From an uncultured Reyranella sp. (lineage in GTDB: Bacteria; Pseudomonadota; Alphaproteobacteria; Reyranellales; Reyranellaceae), in assembly GCF_945957355.1 (NCBI RefSeq), contig NZ_CAMFKM010000002.1:310001-374000 (forward strand): a stretch of DNA of 64,000 nucleotides, given 5' to 3'. Under the pieces are notes generated by a model that was not told the DNA's origin, did not search any database, and worked only from the letters and a program-made list of their open reading frames with translations. Positions 56,596-64,000 of the stretch are shown here, one piece after another. A program made the translations under genes and the position numbers. How positions within the stretch are numbered: the stretch's first letter is position 1; the number at the start of each line of letters is the position of its first letter.

Positions 56596-58038
56596 CTACT
56601 CCGCTGCGATCCGTGCGGCGGCCAGCGCCTTGCCCGCGAGATAGGTGTGGACGCGCTCGGCGGCGTCGCGGCCGTCGCGCACCGCCCACACGACCAGCGA
56701 AGCGCCGCGCACGATGTCGCCGGCGGCGAACACGCCGTCGAGGCTGGTCATCATGCTCTTCCAGTCGATCTTCAGCGTGTTCCAGCCGGTGACTCCGAGG
56801 TCAGGCGCGCTCATCGCCGCCGGCAGATCCTCGGGATCGAAGCCCAGCGCCTTCAGCACGAGATCGGCCTCGATGTTGACGTGGCTGTTGGGAATCTCCT
56901 GCGGCGTCTGGCGGCCCGAGGCGTCGGGCATGCCGAGATGGATGCGCACGGTGCGGACGTGGCTCACCGTCTCCTGGCCGAGGAACGCCTGTGGCGCGGC
57001 CAGCCACACGAACTCGACGCCTTCCTCCTCGGCGTGCTTCACCTCGCGCTGGGAGCCAGGCATGTTTGCGCGGTCGCGGCGATAGAGACACTTCACGGAC
57101 TTCGCGCCCTGGCGCACAGCCGTGCGCACGCAATCCATCGCGGTGTCGCCGCCGCCGATCACCACGACGTCCTTGCCCGCCGCATTCAGCATGCCCGATT
57201 CGAATTCCGGTACCGAGTCGCCCAGACCGTGACGGTTCGAGGCGGTGAGATAGTCGAGCGCCGGGGCGATGCCCGCGAGACCGACGCCGGGGGCGGCGAT
57301 GTCGCGTGCCTTGTAGACGCCGGTGGCGATGAGTACGGCGGCGTGGCGCGCGCGCAGCTCCTCGAGCGACACGTCGCGCCCGACGTCGCAGTTCAGGTGG
57401 AAGGAGACTTTCGAATCGCGCAGCAGCTTCTCGCGGCGTTGCACGATCTCCTTCTCGAGCTTGAAGTTCGGGATGCCGTAGATCAGCAGCCCGCCGACCC
57501 GGTCGTAGCGGTCGTAGACGGCGACCTGGTAGCCCTTGCGGCGAAGCTGCTCGGCCGCGGCGAGGCCCGCGGGGCCGGCGCCGACGATGCCGACGCTCTC
57601 GGGCCGCTCGCGCCGTGGCTGGATCGGCTTCACCCAGCCGCGCTGCCAGGCCGTGTCGGTTATGTACTTCTCGACCGAGCCGATCGTGACCGATTCGAAC
57701 CCCTTCTCGATGACGCAGTTGCCTTCGCAGAGCCGATCCTGCGGGCAGATGCGTCCGCAGATCTCCGGGAAATTGTTGGTCGCGGAGGAGAGTTCGTATG
57801 CCTCTTCGAGCCGGCCCTCGGCGGTGAGCTTCAGCCAGTCCGGGATGTTGTTGTGGAGCGGGCAATGGATCTGACAGAACGGCACGCCGCATTGCGAGCA
57901 ACGGGCGGCCTGTTCGGCGGCCTTGTCCCTGGCGAAGCCCTCATAGATCTCGTCGAAGTCGCGGCGCCGTTCGGCGGCCGGCCGCTTGTCGGGCATGGCT
58001 TGCGGCGTTCCGACGAACTTCAGCATCCTCTCGGCCAT
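56596..58038 (-). CDS. gltD: Glutamate synthase (NADPH), small subunit
   Basis: This 480-residue electron-input subunit has iron-sulphur motifs CSQCGVPFCQIHCP near 45-58 and CGRICPQDRLCEGNC near 92. The FAD site is VGIVGAGPAGLAAAEQLRRK near 148, and the NADPH site is VVVIGGGDTAMDCVRT near 282. GAGGAG six bases before the ATG at 58038 fixes the start; a TTG six codons upstream is not favoured. It heads the unit gltD-GST-tautomerase-gltB. Confidence 0.97.
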   Translation of the reverse strand: MAERMLKFVGTPQAMPDKRPAAERRRDFDEIYEGFARDKAAEQAARCSQCGVPFCQIHCPLHNNIPDWLKLTAEGRLEEAYELSSATNNFPEICGRICPQDRLCEGNCVIEKGFESVTIGSVEKYITDTAWQRGWVKPIQPRRERPESVGIVGAGPAGLAAAEQLRRKGYQVAVYDRYDRVGGLLIYGIPNFKLEKEIVQRREKLLRDSKVSFHLNCDVGRDVSLEELRARHAAVLIATGVYKARDIAAPGVGLAGIAPALDYLTASNRHGLGDSVPEFESGMLNAAGKDVVVIGGGDTAMDCVRTAVRQGAKSVKCLYRRDRANMPGSQREVKHAEEEGVEFVWLAAPQAFLGQETVSHVRTVRIHLGMPDASGRQTPQEIPNSHVNIEADLVLKALGFDPEDLPAAMSAPDLGVTGWNTLKIDWKSMMTSLDGVFAAGDIVRGASLVVWAVRDGRDAAERVHTYLAGKALAAARIAAE

Positions 58039-58133
58039 CCCCGGCTCCTCGGACAAATTGTGAAATTTTATTACGCAAGAAGCGCGCCGACCGCGCCTTC
58101 ACGCCATTGTTGGAGGCCTTAGACCATGTCTCT

Positions 58134-58169
58134 CGTCGATAGTCAACTATGTTGACCTAATTATCGACG
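58134..58169. promoter_or_regulatory. Nested inverted repeat upstream of gltD
   Basis: CGTCGATA and TATCGACG form outer arms of eight bases. Inside them GTCAAC-TAT-GTTGAC forms a second, perfect pair; five bases bulge on one side. It lies about 96-131 bases upstream of the gltD ATG. A regulator-binding site for nitrogen control is plausible. On the gltD strand TTGACT lies inside it and could be a -35 element. Confidence 0.45.
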
Positions 58170-58293
58170 GCCTTCACGCCTCCACCCATCATTCTCTCGT
58201 GGAGCGATTCGGTCAATCCTGAGATGATTCCATTATGGGACTAATTGCTTCAGGCAAGCATAAGAGCCGTCTGTGACGTCTTTGTTGGATCAG

Positions 58294-59247
58294 TCAGGCC
58301 GGGGCGTGGAGATTGTAGCGGCCGCCGATGCGGTAGCGGTCGAGGTACATCGGCAGGATGGCCTCGGCGGCCGTTGCCTCGATGCCGAGCGCCGCCAGGC
58401 CGGGGGCACCGGGGCGGGCGACATTGTCGGTCACCAGCAGGTCGACCTGGTCATGGGTCAGGGGCGGGACGGGCAGGAACTCGGAAAAGAACCCCGCGAT
58501 CCGCATCAGGCTGGCCGGGATGCCGACGATCCGCTTGTGGCGGTCGGTTTCGCGCAGCACGAGAGCGGCGATCTCGCGGTAGGTGTAGACGCGCGGACCA
58601 CCCAGTTCGAACACGGTCCTGGCCGTGTCGGGACGTTCCAGCACGGCCACCACGGCCGCGCCGAGATCGCCCACGAAAACCGGCTGGACCCTGGCCGACC
58701 CGTCGCCGACCACCGGCAGGAACGGCGCCTGCTTGGCGATCTGGCCCATGCGGTTGAACATCGCGTCCTCGGGCCCGAAGACCACGCTCGGGCGCAGGAT
58801 CGTGGCGTCCGGGAATCCCGCGACGATCGCATCCTCGGCGTCGACCTTGGAGCGGATGTACTTGTTCGTCGAATTGCGCTGGTCGGCGCCGATGCCGGAC
58901 ATATGTACCAGGCGCTGGACGCCTGCGGCCTTAGCGGCCTCGGCGATGGCCCGCGAACCCTCGACATGGACGGTCTGGTAACTCTGGCGGCCGCGCTGGA
59001 AGGCAATGCCGGAGGCATTGACCACCGCCTGGCTGCCGGCGACGGCGGCCTTCACCGACGCGGCGTTGCGCAGGTTGGTTCGCACCAGCGTGATCTGGCC
59101 GACATCGCCTGCGGTCTTGATCCGCTCCGCCAGCTCGATGCGCCGGCAGGCGATGCGAACCTGGTATCCCTCGTGCGCCAGCGCGCGCACGATGGCGCGG
59201 CCGACGAAGCCGCTGCCGCCAAAGACGGTGACCTGCTTGATGCTCAT
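58294..59247 (-). CDS. NDUFA9-like NAD(P)-binding protein (atypical SDR)
   Basis: This 317-residue protein has a Rossmann site, VTVFGGSGFVGRAIVRALAH. LVHMSGIGADQRNSTNKYIR and SKVDAEDAIVAG follow, as in the complex I 39-kDa subunit-like group of bacteria. VFELGGPRVYTYREIAALVL is also typical. Members assist in complex I or quinone metabolism, or reduce unknown substrates. The gene stands alone with 237 bases to gltD. Confidence 0.88.
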   Translation of the reverse strand: MSIKQVTVFGGSGFVGRAIVRALAHEGYQVRIACRRIELAERIKTAGDVGQITLVRTNLRNAASVKAAVAGSQAVVNASGIAFQRGRQSYQTVHVEGSRAIAEAAKAAGVQRLVHMSGIGADQRNSTNKYIRSKVDAEDAIVAGFPDATILRPSVVFGPEDAMFNRMGQIAKQAPFLPVVGDGSARVQPVFVGDLGAAVVAVLERPDTARTVFELGGPRVYTYREIAALVLRETDRHKRIVGIPASLMRIAGFFSEFLPVPPLTHDQVDLLVTDNVARPGAPGLAALGIEATAAEAILPMYLDRYRIGGRYNLHAPA

Positions 59248-59383
59248 GGATGCTGCCTATAGCCCAATGCCATGACGGTTCAAGGGGCGAAGCGCGCCCG
59301 CGCGCTGTCGCGCGAGTGTCTACACCGGTTGACATCGGCGCGACGCGGCCCTAACTCAGCGCCCGCACTAGACCGCATGCCGT

Positions 59384-59468
<85 letters not shown>

Positions 59469-59543
59469 TGCGGCTGGTTTCTCCTTTGAAGCCAGATATT
59501 CGAGCCGCATCCGCGGCCGTCGGCAGCAACGTCGCCGCCCGGA

Positions 59544-59804
59544 TCAACGCCGGATAAAAACAGCATAGACCATCAATATGGCGAAGCCTGCTGCGCCGCT
59601 TGCGGTTGCGTAGGCCAGGGTGATCGGAATTCGCCACTTGCGGTGCTTGTGGGCGAGAATGCGCAGATGTTCACGGCGGGTCATGCCGCCCGGGAAATCA
59701 TATTTGCCCGGGGGGTCCTCGATGTTGGCTGTCGCGCGCCGCCAACCCACAACGGCGCCCATGATGGCAAACAACGCAACGACCGCCAGTACCATGTAGT
59801 TCAT
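59544..59804 (-). CDS. Small two-helix inner-membrane protein, 86 residues
   Basis: It reads MNYMVLAVVALFAIMGAVVG, then a hydrophilic middle (PPGKYDFPGGMTRREHLRIL), then a second helix (LAYATASGAAGFAILMVYAV) ending FIRR. Both termini should lie on the same side. I do not recognise a family. It converges with the tRNA gene. Clear hydrophobic pattern and codon use favour a real gene. Confidence 0.55.
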   Translation of the reverse strand: MNYMVLAVVALFAIMGAVVGWRRATANIEDPPGKYDFPGGMTRREHLRILAHKHRKWRIPITLAYATASGAAGFAILMVYAVFIRR

Positions 59805-60079
59805 CGCATCTGTCTCTTGCCTCGGTCCGATGCCGACGATTCAGTATAGCCATTTCTTCTCGCACGGATCGATTACGGTCGCTGCGACAAAGCAGGCACT
59901 GAGGCCGATGGATCAAGTGTGTACCGCACGTCACCGTCAATCCCGGCAATATGGACGTCGCTTCCGGACTGGCGTACATACTGACCGCGTGCCGCATCTT
60001 CATGTGGAATATCAATAGTTTAGGCGCCGCCGGAGCATTTGCCTCCGGACGACGTGCTGGCCAGCTGGAGCATTTATAG
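59805..60079. other. Intergenic region without a supported gene
   Basis: Short frames here lack a ribosome site, a family match and the local codon bias. A weak hairpin, CCGGAG-N6-CTCCGG, is present near 60033. The nrnC promoter should lie in the last ~100 bases. Confidence 0.5.
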
Positions 60080-60703
60080 ATGGCGATCAGCCTTCACCGG
60101 GGCGACCTTCCCGCGGATCTCTCGTTCGGCTCCGTCGTCGCCATCGATACCGAGACCATGGGCCTCAACCCCCATCGCGACCGGCTTTGCCTCGTGCAGC
60201 TTTCGGCGGGCGACGGCAACGCCCATCTGGTCCAGATTCCGCGGGGAGCGCCGAAGGGCGCGGCCAAGGCGCCGCGGCTCGCCGCCCTGATCGCCGATCC
60301 CAAGGTGTTGAAGCTCTTTCATTTCGGCCGCTTCGACATCGCCGTGCTCGAGCATTCGCTCGGCGTTCGCTGCGAGCCGGTCTATTGCACCAAGATCGCG
60401 GCCAAGCTGGTGCGCACCTTCACCGACCGATTCGGGCTGAAGGAACTGTGCCGGGAGTTGTTGGGTGTCGATCTCTCCAAGCAGCAGCAGACCTCGGACT
60501 GGGGGGCCGATAGCCTGACCGATGAGCAGCTTGCCTACGCCGCTTCGGACGTTCTGCATTTGCACGCCCTCAAGGCCAAGCTCGACCTGCTTCTGGAACG
60601 CGAGGGGCGCCGTGAGCTGGCGGATGCCGCCTTCGCCTTTTTGCCCACCCGTGCACGGCTGGACATTGCGGGCTGGCCCGAGACGGATATTTTCGCACAT
60701 TGA
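60080..60703 (+). CDS. nrnC: RNase D-like 3'-5' exoribonuclease of the NrnC type
   Basis: This 207-residue DEDDy exonuclease has Asp and Glu in VAIDTETMGLNPHRDRLCLV, Asp in LFHFGRFDIAVLEHS, and Tyr and Asp in AYAASDVLHLHALKAKL. It lacks the HRDC domain of full RNase D, and its length and the NPHRDRLC segment match alphaproteobacterial NrnC. That enzyme degrades dinucleotides, so a nanoRNase role is likely. It lies 82 bases upstream of rpoN. Confidence 0.9.
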   Translation: MAISLHRGDLPADLSFGSVVAIDTETMGLNPHRDRLCLVQLSAGDGNAHLVQIPRGAPKGAAKAPRLAALIADPKVLKLFHFGRFDIAVLEHSLGVRCEPVYCTKIAAKLVRTFTDRFGLKELCRELLGVDLSKQQQTSDWGADSLTDEQLAYAASDVLHLHALKAKLDLLLEREGRRELADAAFAFLPTRARLDIAGWPETDIFAH

Positions 60704-60723
60704 AATATCGGCCGTGATGAATT

Positions 60724-60739
60724 TGGCACGGTTTTTGCT
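60724..60739 (+). promoter_or_regulatory. Sigma-54 (-24/-12) promoter upstream of rpoN
   Basis: TGGCACG-GTTT-TTGCT matches the sigma-54 consensus at every core base, with ten bases between the GG (60725-60726) and GC (60737-60738) dinucleotides. The start of transcription would be near 60750, about 36 bases before the rpoN ATG. An enhancer-binding-protein site is not visible nearby and could lie within nrnC. Confidence 0.75.
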
Positions 60740-60785
60740 GTAGTTTCCTCACGGGGAGGTCCGTAGACCTTCAGGGTGGGGTGCC

Positions 60786-62324
60786 ATGCGTATCGGTCCG
60801 AGTCTAATCCTCGCGTCACGCCAGACTTTGGCAATGACGCCGCAGCTCCAGCAGGCCATCAAGCTGCTGCAGTTCTCGCACCTCGAGCTTGCCGCTTTCA
60901 TTCAACAGGAACTGGAAAAGAATCCGCTGCTGGCCGAGGGCTCCTCGGACGAGGGCCCTTCGGTCGACCATGAAGGCCCCGCCATCGAGACGCCGCGCGA
61001 TACGGCCGAAGCGCTCTCGGCCGCCGCGCCGGCCCTTGCCGAAGCCGACGATCGCTGGACCCGTGAACATGCCGACCGTGGCGGCGACGCCGCCGCGAGC
61101 CGCGCCGGCCAGCGTGAGGATGCGCCCGAGGCGCTGGATTTCGTGGCCGAGCGTCCGCAATCGCTGGCCGTTCATGTGCTCGAGCAGATCGAGCTCATGT
61201 TCAAGGATCCGGCGGAGCGCCGTATCGCGCTGAAGATCGCGGAAGGCCTCGACGAGGCCGGTTACTGCCGCCTCGACGTCGCCGCCGTTGCCGAGGCCGT
61301 CGCCAGCGACATCGCACTCGTCGAAAAGATCTGGGCCCGGCTGCGTCAGATGGAGCCTGCCGGTCTGTTCTCCCGGACCGTCGCCGAGTGCCTTGCGGCG
61401 CAGCTCGTCGAACGCAATCGTCTCGATCCGGCGATGAAGGCGTTGCTCGAGAATCTCGATCTCGTCGCCGCCGGCGAACTCGGCCAGCTCCGCCGTCGCT
61501 GTGCCGTCGACGACGAGGATCTGCGTGACATGCTGGCCGAGCTCCGCACGCTCGACCCGCGACCGGGCCAGGCCTTCGAGTTCGAGCCGATCCAGCCGGT
61601 GCAGCCCGATCTCTATCTGACGCCGGCCAAGGATCCCGAGACCGGCGAGGATGGCTGGCACATCGAGCTCAACACCGACGCGCTGCCCAAGGTCCTGGTC
61701 GATCGTAACTATCACGCGACGTTGATGAAGGGCGCCCGCGCCAAGCCCGATCGCGACTTCGTCGCCGAGCGATTCCAGTCAGCCAACTGGCTGGTCAAGA
61801 CGCTGGAGCAGCGCGCCACCACGATCCTCAAGGTCGCGCGCGAGATCGTGCGCCAGCAGGACGGCTTCTTCCGCCACGGCGTCAGCGCGCTGAAGCCGCT
61901 GGTCCTGCGCGATATCGCCATCGCCACCGAGCTGCACGAGAGCACGGTGAGCCGTGTCACCTCGAACAAGTACATCAATACGCCGCGTGGCATCTTCGAA
62001 CTGAAGTACTTCTTCACCTCGGCACTGCCGGCGCGGACGCCCGGCGTCGTCGTCTCCTCGGAATCAGTGCGGTCGCGTATCCGCCTGCTCGTTGGCGGCG
62101 AGAACGCGCACCAGCCGCTCAGCGACGACCGTATCGTCGACCTGCTGAAGGGCGAGGGCATCGAAATCGCGCGTCGGACCGTGGCGAAGTATCGTGAGGC
62201 CATGCGCATACCGTCGTCGGCGGAGCGTCGTCGCCTGGGCCGGTTGGGCATGAGTCGCCAGATGCCCTCAGTTCTGCCGCATGCCGCCGCCGCCGCCCAG
62301 GCGATGAGCGGCTCGGCCGACTGA
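60786..62324 (+). CDS. rpoN: RNA polymerase sigma-54 factor
   Basis: This 512-residue sigma factor starts with the Gln/Leu-rich activator-responsive region, RQTLAMTPQLQQAIKLLQFS. An acidic linker follows, then the core-binding domain (residues ~130-310). The helix-turn-helix is near 385 (IATELHESTVSRVTSNKYIN). The RpoN box ARRTVAKYREAMRIPSS near 460 reads the -24 element. Usual alphaproteobacterial neighbours lptA, lptB and hpf are not beside it. Confidence 0.97.
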   Translation: MRIGPSLILASRQTLAMTPQLQQAIKLLQFSHLELAAFIQQELEKNPLLAEGSSDEGPSVDHEGPAIETPRDTAEALSAAAPALAEADDRWTREHADRGGDAAASRAGQREDAPEALDFVAERPQSLAVHVLEQIELMFKDPAERRIALKIAEGLDEAGYCRLDVAAVAEAVASDIALVEKIWARLRQMEPAGLFSRTVAECLAAQLVERNRLDPAMKALLENLDLVAAGELGQLRRRCAVDDEDLRDMLAELRTLDPRPGQAFEFEPIQPVQPDLYLTPAKDPETGEDGWHIELNTDALPKVLVDRNYHATLMKGARAKPDRDFVAERFQSANWLVKTLEQRATTILKVAREIVRQQDGFFRHGVSALKPLVLRDIAIATELHESTVSRVTSNKYINTPRGIFELKYFFTSALPARTPGVVVSSESVRSRIRLLVGGENAHQPLSDDRIVDLLKGEGIEIARRTVAKYREAMRIPSSAERRRLGRLGMSRQMPSVLPHAAAAAQAMSGSAD

Positions 62325-62453
62325 GGCGGGTCGCGCGGCGGGGCGCGGCGTGCCCGCGAACCATGGCTTGACCCGACCGGGGGACGCGCCTATAGGGGCG
62401 CACCCTTCGCAGGGGCGACCAAAGTTTGCGCTCGCTAACCCATTGGTGACATT

Positions 62454-62924
62454 GTGGAAATCGCCGATTTGCTGACCGGTCCGGACGCCGTTCTGGCCAG
62501 CGCCAAGGCGACCGGGAAGAAGGCGCTGCTGGCGGAACTCGCCAATCGTGCCGCCGGTCTTTTCAACATCGACGAACGCAAGCTGTTTGACCGCCTGCTC
62601 GAGAGGGAGCGCCTGGGATCGACCGGCATCGGCGGCGGCATCGCGATCCCGCACGGCCGGTTGTCGACCATGACGAAGCCGATGGGTGTCTTTGCGCGCA
62701 TGGCACATCCCGTCGATTTCGACGCGATCGACGAACGTCCCGTGGACATCGTGTTCCTGCTGGTCACGCCGGAGGGTGCCGGCGCCGATCATCTCAAGGC
62801 GTTGGCGCGCGTGTCACGCCTGCTGCGTGACCGCAGCCTCGTGGAGAAGCTGCGGGCGACGGAGAATGCCGAGGCGCTCTACGCGCTACTTGTCGAGACG
62901 GTGCAGGCACAGAGCGCTGCCTGA
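62454..62924 (+). CDS. ptsN: Nitrogen PTS EIIA component (PtsN)
   Basis: This 156-residue EIIA(Ntr) protein relays phosphate in the nitrogen phosphotransferase system and affects K+ and nitrogen control. The phospho-acceptor His67 is in GIGGGIAIPHGRLSTM, and VDIVFLLVTPEGAGADHLKA follows. The start is a GTG at 62454, 130 bases after rpoN. The gap is too short to hold hpf, which is usually found between these genes. Confidence 0.95.
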   Translation: MEIADLLTGPDAVLASAKATGKKALLAELANRAAGLFNIDERKLFDRLLERERLGSTGIGGGIAIPHGRLSTMTKPMGVFARMAHPVDFDAIDERPVDIVFLLVTPEGAGADHLKALARVSRLLRDRSLVEKLRATENAEALYALLVETVQAQSAA

Positions 62925-62960
62925 ACCGCCTCAGTCTTGAGCTTTCCCGGCCCGGCTTCC

Positions 62961-63188
62961 TCAGTGCACCAGCGCGGGCTCCAGCTCGTGCTGGCGGATC
63001 AGCGCCTGGGCGATCTCGATCGAGGGAGCCGATGCCATCGGCTTGCCGTCGGCCGAGAAGATGCCGACGGCGTGCGCGCCATCGGGAAGGCTGACGTCCT
63101 TTACATAGGCAATGTGCTCGGCACCGAGGCTGAGAAACGCTTCCTCGGCGAGAGGGGTAAACGTCACGACATTGTTTTCGTTTTGCAT
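62961..63188 (-). CDS. DUF1150-family small protein
   Basis: This 75-residue protein contains LGAEHIAYVKDVSLPDGAHA and IFSADGKPMASAPSIEIAQA, the DUF1150 pattern. In many alphaproteobacteria it lies directly beside hsp20, as here (34 bases downstream on the same strand). AAGGAGGTAGCC gives a very strong ribosome site. The role is unknown, probably in stress. Confidence 0.88.
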   Translation of the reverse strand: MQNENNVVTFTPLAEEAFLSLGAEHIAYVKDVSLPDGAHAVGIFSADGKPMASAPSIEIAQALIRQHELEPALVH

Positions 63189-63222
63189 GGCTACCTCCTT
63201 GGCAGCGTCAACGCACCCCGCC

Positions 63223-63684
63223 TCAACGGCTGCGATGTGCGGTGATATCGATCATATGGTCCGCGTCGCCGGCGGCATTGCCGGAGTCGATGCGGATGGT
63301 TCGAATGCGGGGCTCCAGTACCGGTCGCATCAGGTCGATCGACAACAGGCCGTTGTCGAGACGGGCTCCCGTCACCTCGATTCCGTCGGCAAGCATGAAG
63401 GCCCGCTGGAACTGGCGCGCGGCGATGCCGCGATGGAGGTAGACCCGGCTGCCATCCTCGGCCTGCTTGCCGCGGACGGTGAGCTGGTTCTCGACGAGTT
63501 CGATGGCGAGCTCCGCACTCGTGAAGCCGGCGACCGCCAGGGTGATGCGCAGCCCGTTCTCGCCAATCCGCTCGATATTGTAGGGCGGGTAACCCTCGGC
63601 GTTCTTGGCCAACCGGTCGAGCGTCCGTTCGAACTGGTCGAAGCCCAGCAACAAGGGTGAACTAAACATGGAAACGCGACTCAT
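63223..63684 (-). CDS. Small heat-shock protein (Hsp20/IbpA family)
   Basis: This 153-residue alpha-crystallin-domain chaperone starts MSRVSMFSSPLLLGFDQFER. PPYNIERIGENGLRITLAVA begins the domain, and GIAARQFQRAFMLADGIEV is the conserved inner part. The C-terminal anchor is PRIRTIRID. GGAGGGGGG precedes the ATG at 63684; an earlier in-frame start is rejected. It is co-transcribed with DUF1150. Confidence 0.93.
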   Translation of the reverse strand: MSRVSMFSSPLLLGFDQFERTLDRLAKNAEGYPPYNIERIGENGLRITLAVAGFTSAELAIELVENQLTVRGKQAEDGSRVYLHRGIAARQFQRAFMLADGIEVTGARLDNGLLSIDLMRPVLEPRIRTIRIDSGNAAGDADHMIDITAHRSR

Positions 63685-63745
63685 TCTGAACCCCCCTCCG
63701 TGGAGCGAGTGGCGGGGAATCCCTGAGGGCCTTCCCTTGGAATGA

Positions 63746-63773
63746 ATCTGGGATGCGGTCGTCGCCATTCAAG
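63746..63773 (-). promoter_or_regulatory. Candidate heat-shock (sigma-32) promoter of hsp20
   Basis: On the minus strand CTTGAA is followed 15 bases later by CCCAGAT, close to the sigma-32 pattern CTTGAA and CCCCAT. It ends about 60 bases before the hsp20 ATG. The -10 match is partial. Confidence 0.45.
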
Positions 63774-64000
63774 GGGCCGCCCACCCATCGCCAGAGGGCT
63801 CCGGCTGGGGTAAACTTGTCAAAATCCCTCCACCGCCCGGCTGCTCGAGACTCCCGGGCCAAAGAACGAAAAGATGACGTTGGTCGCTGACACAAGACGG
63901 CCCGGGGAACCTTTGGTTTCCGGCGCCCGGCCCATCCGTTCCGTTCCGACACGCCCCTCTGCCGCAGCAAAGGGAGAGCGTCGCGGCTTCGGCCGCTGGT
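63774..64000. other. Window-edge region without a supported gene
   Basis: No supported coding frame or RNA gene is visible here. The sequence is G+C rich with a weak hairpin (GGAACC-TTT-GGTTTCC near 63916). The rest of this intergenic region lies beyond the window. Confidence 0.45.

Follow-up and report, generated by a model that had tools for sequence, protein, structure and literature searches.

Control of sigma-54-dependent genes is usually placed with their activators and not with the supply of sigma-54 itself. With respect to rpoN genes that answer to their own product, R. capsulatus nifU2-rpoN is described, in the passage of PMC6925177 that cites Cullen et al. 1994, as autoactivated, with two promoters, one weak and constitutive and the other dependent on NifA and RpoN. 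For the rpoN locus of the uncultured Reyranella sp. analysed here we propose a similar arrangement, with its own RpoN-dependent promoter, a weak basal supply and positive feedback at nitrogen shortage. The two differ, as far as that passage describes the R. capsulatus system, in that the RpoN promoter there lies before nifU2 and is NifA-activated, whereas in Reyranella it lies directly before rpoN and no NifA was found in the genome; furthermore, NtrC of R. capsulatus acts together with the housekeeping sigma factor, whereas Reyranella NtrC has the GAFTGA motif.

In Rhizobium etli and Mesorhizobium loti, prxS-rpoN2 has a NifA/RpoN promoter, and the R. etli operon is NifA-activated (PMC3538637). 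The Reyranella gene likewise stands behind a predicted RpoN promoter, but rpoN2 is a second, symbiosis-specific copy in an operon, whereas the Reyranella rpoN is the only copy and lies in an rnd-rpoN-ptsN neighbourhood. Rhizobium leguminosarum has a single, negatively autoregulated rpoN (PMC3538637), which resembles ours as a single rpoN answering to its own product, with the sign opposite to that proposed here; among the Rhizobium loci examined, none has a site scoring at least 13 of 15 within 250 bases upstream of rpoN. In addition, a computed survey of sigma-54 regulons (PMC12316311) predicts such a promoter upstream of rpoN in the alpha-, beta- and gammaproteobacteria as well as in other groups, so that a sigma-54 promoter before rpoN is not new as a principle. 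That is a class-level prediction, and the passage concerned is silent on the activator, the leader and the history in this lineage. Self-activated rpoN being already known, what is new here is the direct, conserved promoter together with the proposed NtrC-only circuit, the structured leader and the proposed origin by operon collapse.

The rpoN locus and its predicted promoter

Positions below refer to the window, which is the whole stretch of DNA analysed (64,000 nucleotides). The features of the locus are as follows.

60080..60703, plus strand: ORF for an rnd-like 3'-5' exonuclease of the ribonuclease D family, 207 aa; TIGR01388 E 4e-28, under the curated cut-off
60724..60738, plus strand: predicted sigma-54 (-24/-12) promoter TGGCACG-GTTT-TTGC; direct reading, TGGCA and TTGC invariant in 51/51 relatives
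60750, plus strand: putative transcription start, 12 nt past the -12 C, as predicted from the geometry of known sigma-54 promoters
60755..60772, plus strand: leader stem-loop GGAGGTC-CGTA-GACCTTC, from about +6; 330/336 stem cells paired in 48 relatives
60774..60781, plus strand: Shine-Dalgarno-like GGGTGGGG; direct reading, G-rich stretch retained in relatives
60786..62324, plus strand: ORF for rpoN, sigma-54 factor, 512 aa; sole copy in the genome
62454..62924, plus strand: ptsN-like PTS IIA-Ntr, 156 aa, 3' neighbour of rpoN; TIGR01419 135.5 bits, cut-off 138.7

The RpoN identity of the ORF at 60786-62324 is supported by NCBIfam NF004596 (597 bits, cut-off 499) and by TIGR02395 (397 bits, cut-off 277), and it is the 1 sigma-54 gene of a genome that is 99.88% complete. 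The rnd gene lies upstream in 48/51 rpoN loci, with a usual gap of 20 nt between rnd and the promoter. On the other side of rpoN, hpf is missing between rpoN and ptsN (62324-62454), the common order in other Proteobacteria being rpoN-hpf-ptsN. A simple, crude consensus scan of 59950-60900 returned no sigma-70-like promoter, and a crude scan of the same interval returned no terminator beyond chance. Since the gap between rnd and rpoN is short and has no terminator beyond chance, the rnd transcript probably reads through into rpoN and would be the source of its basal expression.

The original prediction placed TGGCACG-N4-TTGC, with exact spacing, 47 bases 5' of the rpoN ATG, and direct reading confirms this: TGGCACGGTTTTTGC occupies 60724-60738 on the plus strand, and the ATG at 60786 follows after 47 bases (60739-60785). 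The T at 60739 also agrees with TTGCW, so that this rpoN-proximal element satisfies the full consensus TGGCACG-N4-TTGCW (16/16), with the dinucleotides GG (60725-60726) and GC (60737-60738) spaced as GG-N10-GC. It is the 1 exact sigma-54 match on both strands of the 64 kb window, against 0.09 expected from shuffles; when 2 mismatches are allowed there are 24 matches versus 28 expected, indicating that the information lies only in the exact match and its place. Across the whole genome, the looser pattern TGGCAYG-N4-TTGC has 20 matches versus 5 for a reversed control pattern, and for this reason some of the other matches (those of glnK and its divergent neighbour) are real and others probably chance. 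Most of the remaining exact matches in the genome are located within ORFs and may have arisen by chance.

Conservation of the element among relatives

Starting from the rpoN genes of 60 family genomes, we scanned the stretch upstream and found the element in 51 genomes, 50 from the genus and one from a sister genus on the same branch (G004). The element scores 14 or 15 of 15 weighted points throughout this set, with L117 alone at 13. An alignment anchored on the element shows TGGCA and TTGC without variation, a sixth position that is C or T and a seventh that is nearly always G, while the spacer and both flanks are variable and the neighbouring columns near random. The distance from element to ATG is 43-49 bases in 51/51, and a short leader with a G-rich Shine-Dalgarno-like stretch lies between the element and rpoN in the relatives. 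An invariant core amid drifting flanks is what selection on a binding site would produce, and as far as sequence goes the element is real and conserved. The original prediction had named a search of related genomes as a check on the site, and loss of the GG and GC dinucleotides in close relatives as evidence against it; this search finds GG and GC kept in all 51, and the predicted sigma-54 promoter oriented into rpoN is thereby borne out as a sequence element. The original prediction also had the promoter depend on an enhancer-binding protein, but it did not mention the leader hairpin, the small number of activators or the probable age of the promoter, which are described below.

The leader hairpin

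With the start predicted at 60750, the leader reads CACGGGGAGGTCCGTAGACCTTCAGGGTGGGGTGCC-ATG and can form a hairpin directly 5' of the Shine-Dalgarno. The stem starts 13-18 nt past the -12 C in 48/51 relatives, and there are 39 distinct arm pairs among the 51. With the arms fixed at seven positions, standard pairs fill 330 of 336 cells (48 relatives), against a mean of 257 and a maximum of 280 paired cells when 3' arms are swapped between genomes, and pairing falls to 58% when one arm is slid by one base; the percentages are inflated by the choice of stems for their pairing, and the related sequences are non-independent. Up to four standard pair types occur per stem position (TA, GC, CG and TG at the second pair), the stem being kept by compensatory changes, and the 5' arm is mostly purines. 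The swap and slide controls and the constant location favour an RNA stem maintained by selection over a fixed DNA operator.

Helix-anchored counting was used in place of RNAalifold on a MAFFT leader alignment, in which a pairing of the 3' arm with the Shine-Dalgarno was weak, with misregistered arms and no compensatory changes. A switch between two leader folds is also unsupported, a genome's own Shine-Dalgarno pairing no better than swapped ones, and Rfam (cmscan, 58000-64000) returned only a tRNA, with no family match at the hairpin. The position of the hairpin near the 5' end suggests a role in message protection and/or in keeping or presenting the ribosome site. In the glnK leaders of most relatives we observe, by eye, a G-rich stem between promoter and Shine-Dalgarno, and glnK of the Reyranella genome has a promoter and leader of the same kind as rpoN; a G-rich leader stem may be common to NtrC-type messages of the group.

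Candidate activators

A search of the genome for the sigma-54 activator domain (Sigma54_activat) gave 3 matches, NtrC, NtrX and ClpB, the last at 26 bits. NtrC adjoins NtrB and has an intact loop ELFGHERGAFTGAV, with GAFTGA present. NtrX adjoins NtrY, its loop reads ELFGTDGDTEAEALRVSGAF without GAFTGA, and its Walker B is degenerate (LVLKEVAD). GAFTGA is the loop that contacts sigma-54, and since NtrX is without it, NtrC is the only competent activator in this genome. NtrX is also without GAFTGA in 11/11 further relatives with a readable loop, and the same is reported for NtrX of Caulobacter (PMC10274813). About 19 genomes of the genus, including this one, have the same three-match count, the matches being identified singly in this genome only. 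The element is retained in these genomes, so that NtrC is likely the activator there too; some other relatives carry additional activators. By elimination, the activator of the rpoN promoter is probably NtrC.

No conserved TGCAC-N7-GTGCA NtrC dyad was found upstream of rpoN, the best scores being those of shuffles; the motif searched is the general consensus, from which the NtrC motif of this lineage may differ. Looking for an enhancer footprint as synonymous constraint in the 3' part of rnd gave none, entropy rising towards the 3' end. A dyad CCGTGC-N8-GCACGG overlapping the -24 element occurs in few relatives and is not general.

With respect to glnK, a standard NtrC target, a palindrome TGCACA-N3-TGTGANCA lies about 205 bases before the ATG and about 140 bp upstream of the -24 in most relatives (L165-L191), within the signal-peptide codons of the divergent gene, and is a candidate NtrC site or a coding constraint. 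As an NtrC site it is unsafe, given those codons and its broken state in the Reyranella genome, and a matrix derived from it had no match near rpoN. Two predicted back-to-back sigma-54 promoters 45 bp apart lie between glnK and the divergent TorF-like gene (G000:C1:618503-618562; L146, L147), and this pair is kept in most relatives (L165-L193).

Origin of the arrangement

In another genus of the comparison (g5) the order is rnd-lptC-lptA-lptB-rpoN, by position and LptA-domain matches, and 4/4 genomes have, before lptC and 13-30 nt past the rnd stop, a sigma-54 site that scores 13-14/15; the chance of a score of at least 13 in 150 bases is about 0.01, and of a score of 14 about 0.0005. In the Reyranella genome, LpxC and any LptD_N-domain protein (LptA/LptD) are missing and nothing passes the curated cut-off for LptB, indicating that the lpt genes were not merely moved. 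The LptD_N domain is absent in 50/51 genus genomes, with the sole match at a short contig end. The lineage thus appears to be without lipopolysaccharide (LPS) synthesis and export, LpxC and LptB having been searched in this genome only.

G001, from a further genus that is also without the LptD_N domain, has rnd, a 13/15 site after 19 nt, and then rpoN. A maximum-likelihood RpoN tree places G001 with g5 and apart from the Reyranella genus (support 95/96, long branch), so that there may have been two separate losses of LPS export, both ending in the order rnd-promoter-rpoN. Since g5 and G001 have a sigma-54 site in the same place behind rnd, the promoter probably predates both the present arrangement and the loss of the LPS export genes. 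The RpoN branches of both lpt-lacking lineages are very long (0.79 changes per column for G001 and 0.81 for the genus with G004), as if RpoN had evolved fast after the change. In addition, loci of more distant Alphaproteobacteria (L029, L043, L045 and L063) have near-consensus sigma-54 sites of 12-13/15 59-121 bases past rnd, before the rpoN operon, and the promoter may be older than the family.

Proposed circuit and alternative explanations

The site and its conservation, the covariation of the hairpin, the single rpoN, the count of activators and the comparison of gene orders are direct results. From them we infer the activity of the element and its sign, NtrC as the activator, the read-through from rnd and the role of the hairpin, and we estimate a probability of about 0.72 that the element functions as a sigma-54 promoter for rpoN, with positive autoregulation via NtrC and basal read-through from rnd. 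Transcription initiated upstream of rnd would continue into rpoN and provide a low basal level of RpoN. Under nitrogen limitation, NtrC in its phosphorylated form would remodel the RpoN-polymerase waiting at 60724-60738, which would raise transcription of rpoN, and possibly of ptsN, and close a positive loop. The transcript would start near 60750, with the stem-loop almost at its 5' end, where the hairpin most likely protects the mRNA and/or holds the Shine-Dalgarno open. The promoter would once have stood behind rnd and before lptC-lptA-lptB-rpoN, and the loss of the LPS export genes would have put it directly on rpoN.

The sign of the loop is the point at which the nearest alternative departs from this. 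In negative autoregulation, as in R. leguminosarum (PMC3538637), an RpoN-polymerase closed complex at the site would block another promoter or a passing polymerase; this would conserve the element as well, and as no enhancer would be required, it agrees with none having been found. We nevertheless consider repression unlikely, because the simple consensus scan shows no sigma-70-like promoter overlapping the site, the rnd stop is only about 20 nt from it in close relatives, a matching promoter stands before lptC in g5, and the conserved hairpin is placed as it should be if the promoter set the 5' end of the transcript, which suggests that transcription starts here. With a competent NtrC present and no overlapping sigma-70 promoter found, activation is better supported than repression.

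The promoter might instead be active but answer wholly or partly to something besides NtrC, through NtrY/NtrX cross-talk or an unrecognised activator. The lack of an NtrC enhancer among our matches and the extra activators of some relatives speak for this, but we judge it improbable, since the 99.88% complete genome has no other activator, NtrX has no sigma-54 contact loop, and the site is retained in genomes with NtrC and NtrX only. A chance match or a functionless relic is the least credible explanation and a very improbable one: the 5 genome-wide matches of the reversed control do indicate that isolated exact matches can be chance, but nine positions are conserved in 51/51 genomes where neighbouring columns are near random, and we regard a chance origin of the element as already refuted by this conservation.

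Returning to positive autoregulation via NtrC, a stricter form of it is a minimal closed nitrogen switch, with one rpoN, one activator (NtrC), an rpoN promoter that needs both, an origin by operon collapse and a glnK-like leader hairpin that sets message life or translation. We put this forward as a tentative and rather doubtful proposal; if it is true, the minimal nitrogen loop could show bistability, with a memory carried from cell to cell. Furthermore, the supply of sigma-54 itself looks nitrogen-controlled across the whole genus, and many genus genomes, with what appears to be a single competent activator, would offer a natural and uncomplicated setting in which to ask if feedback through the sigma factor makes the response to nitrogen starvation sharper or gives it a memory. 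The locus would also provide a concrete route to such feedback, in which a pathway, here LPS export, is lost from an operon and an existing promoter is thereby brought onto a regulator.
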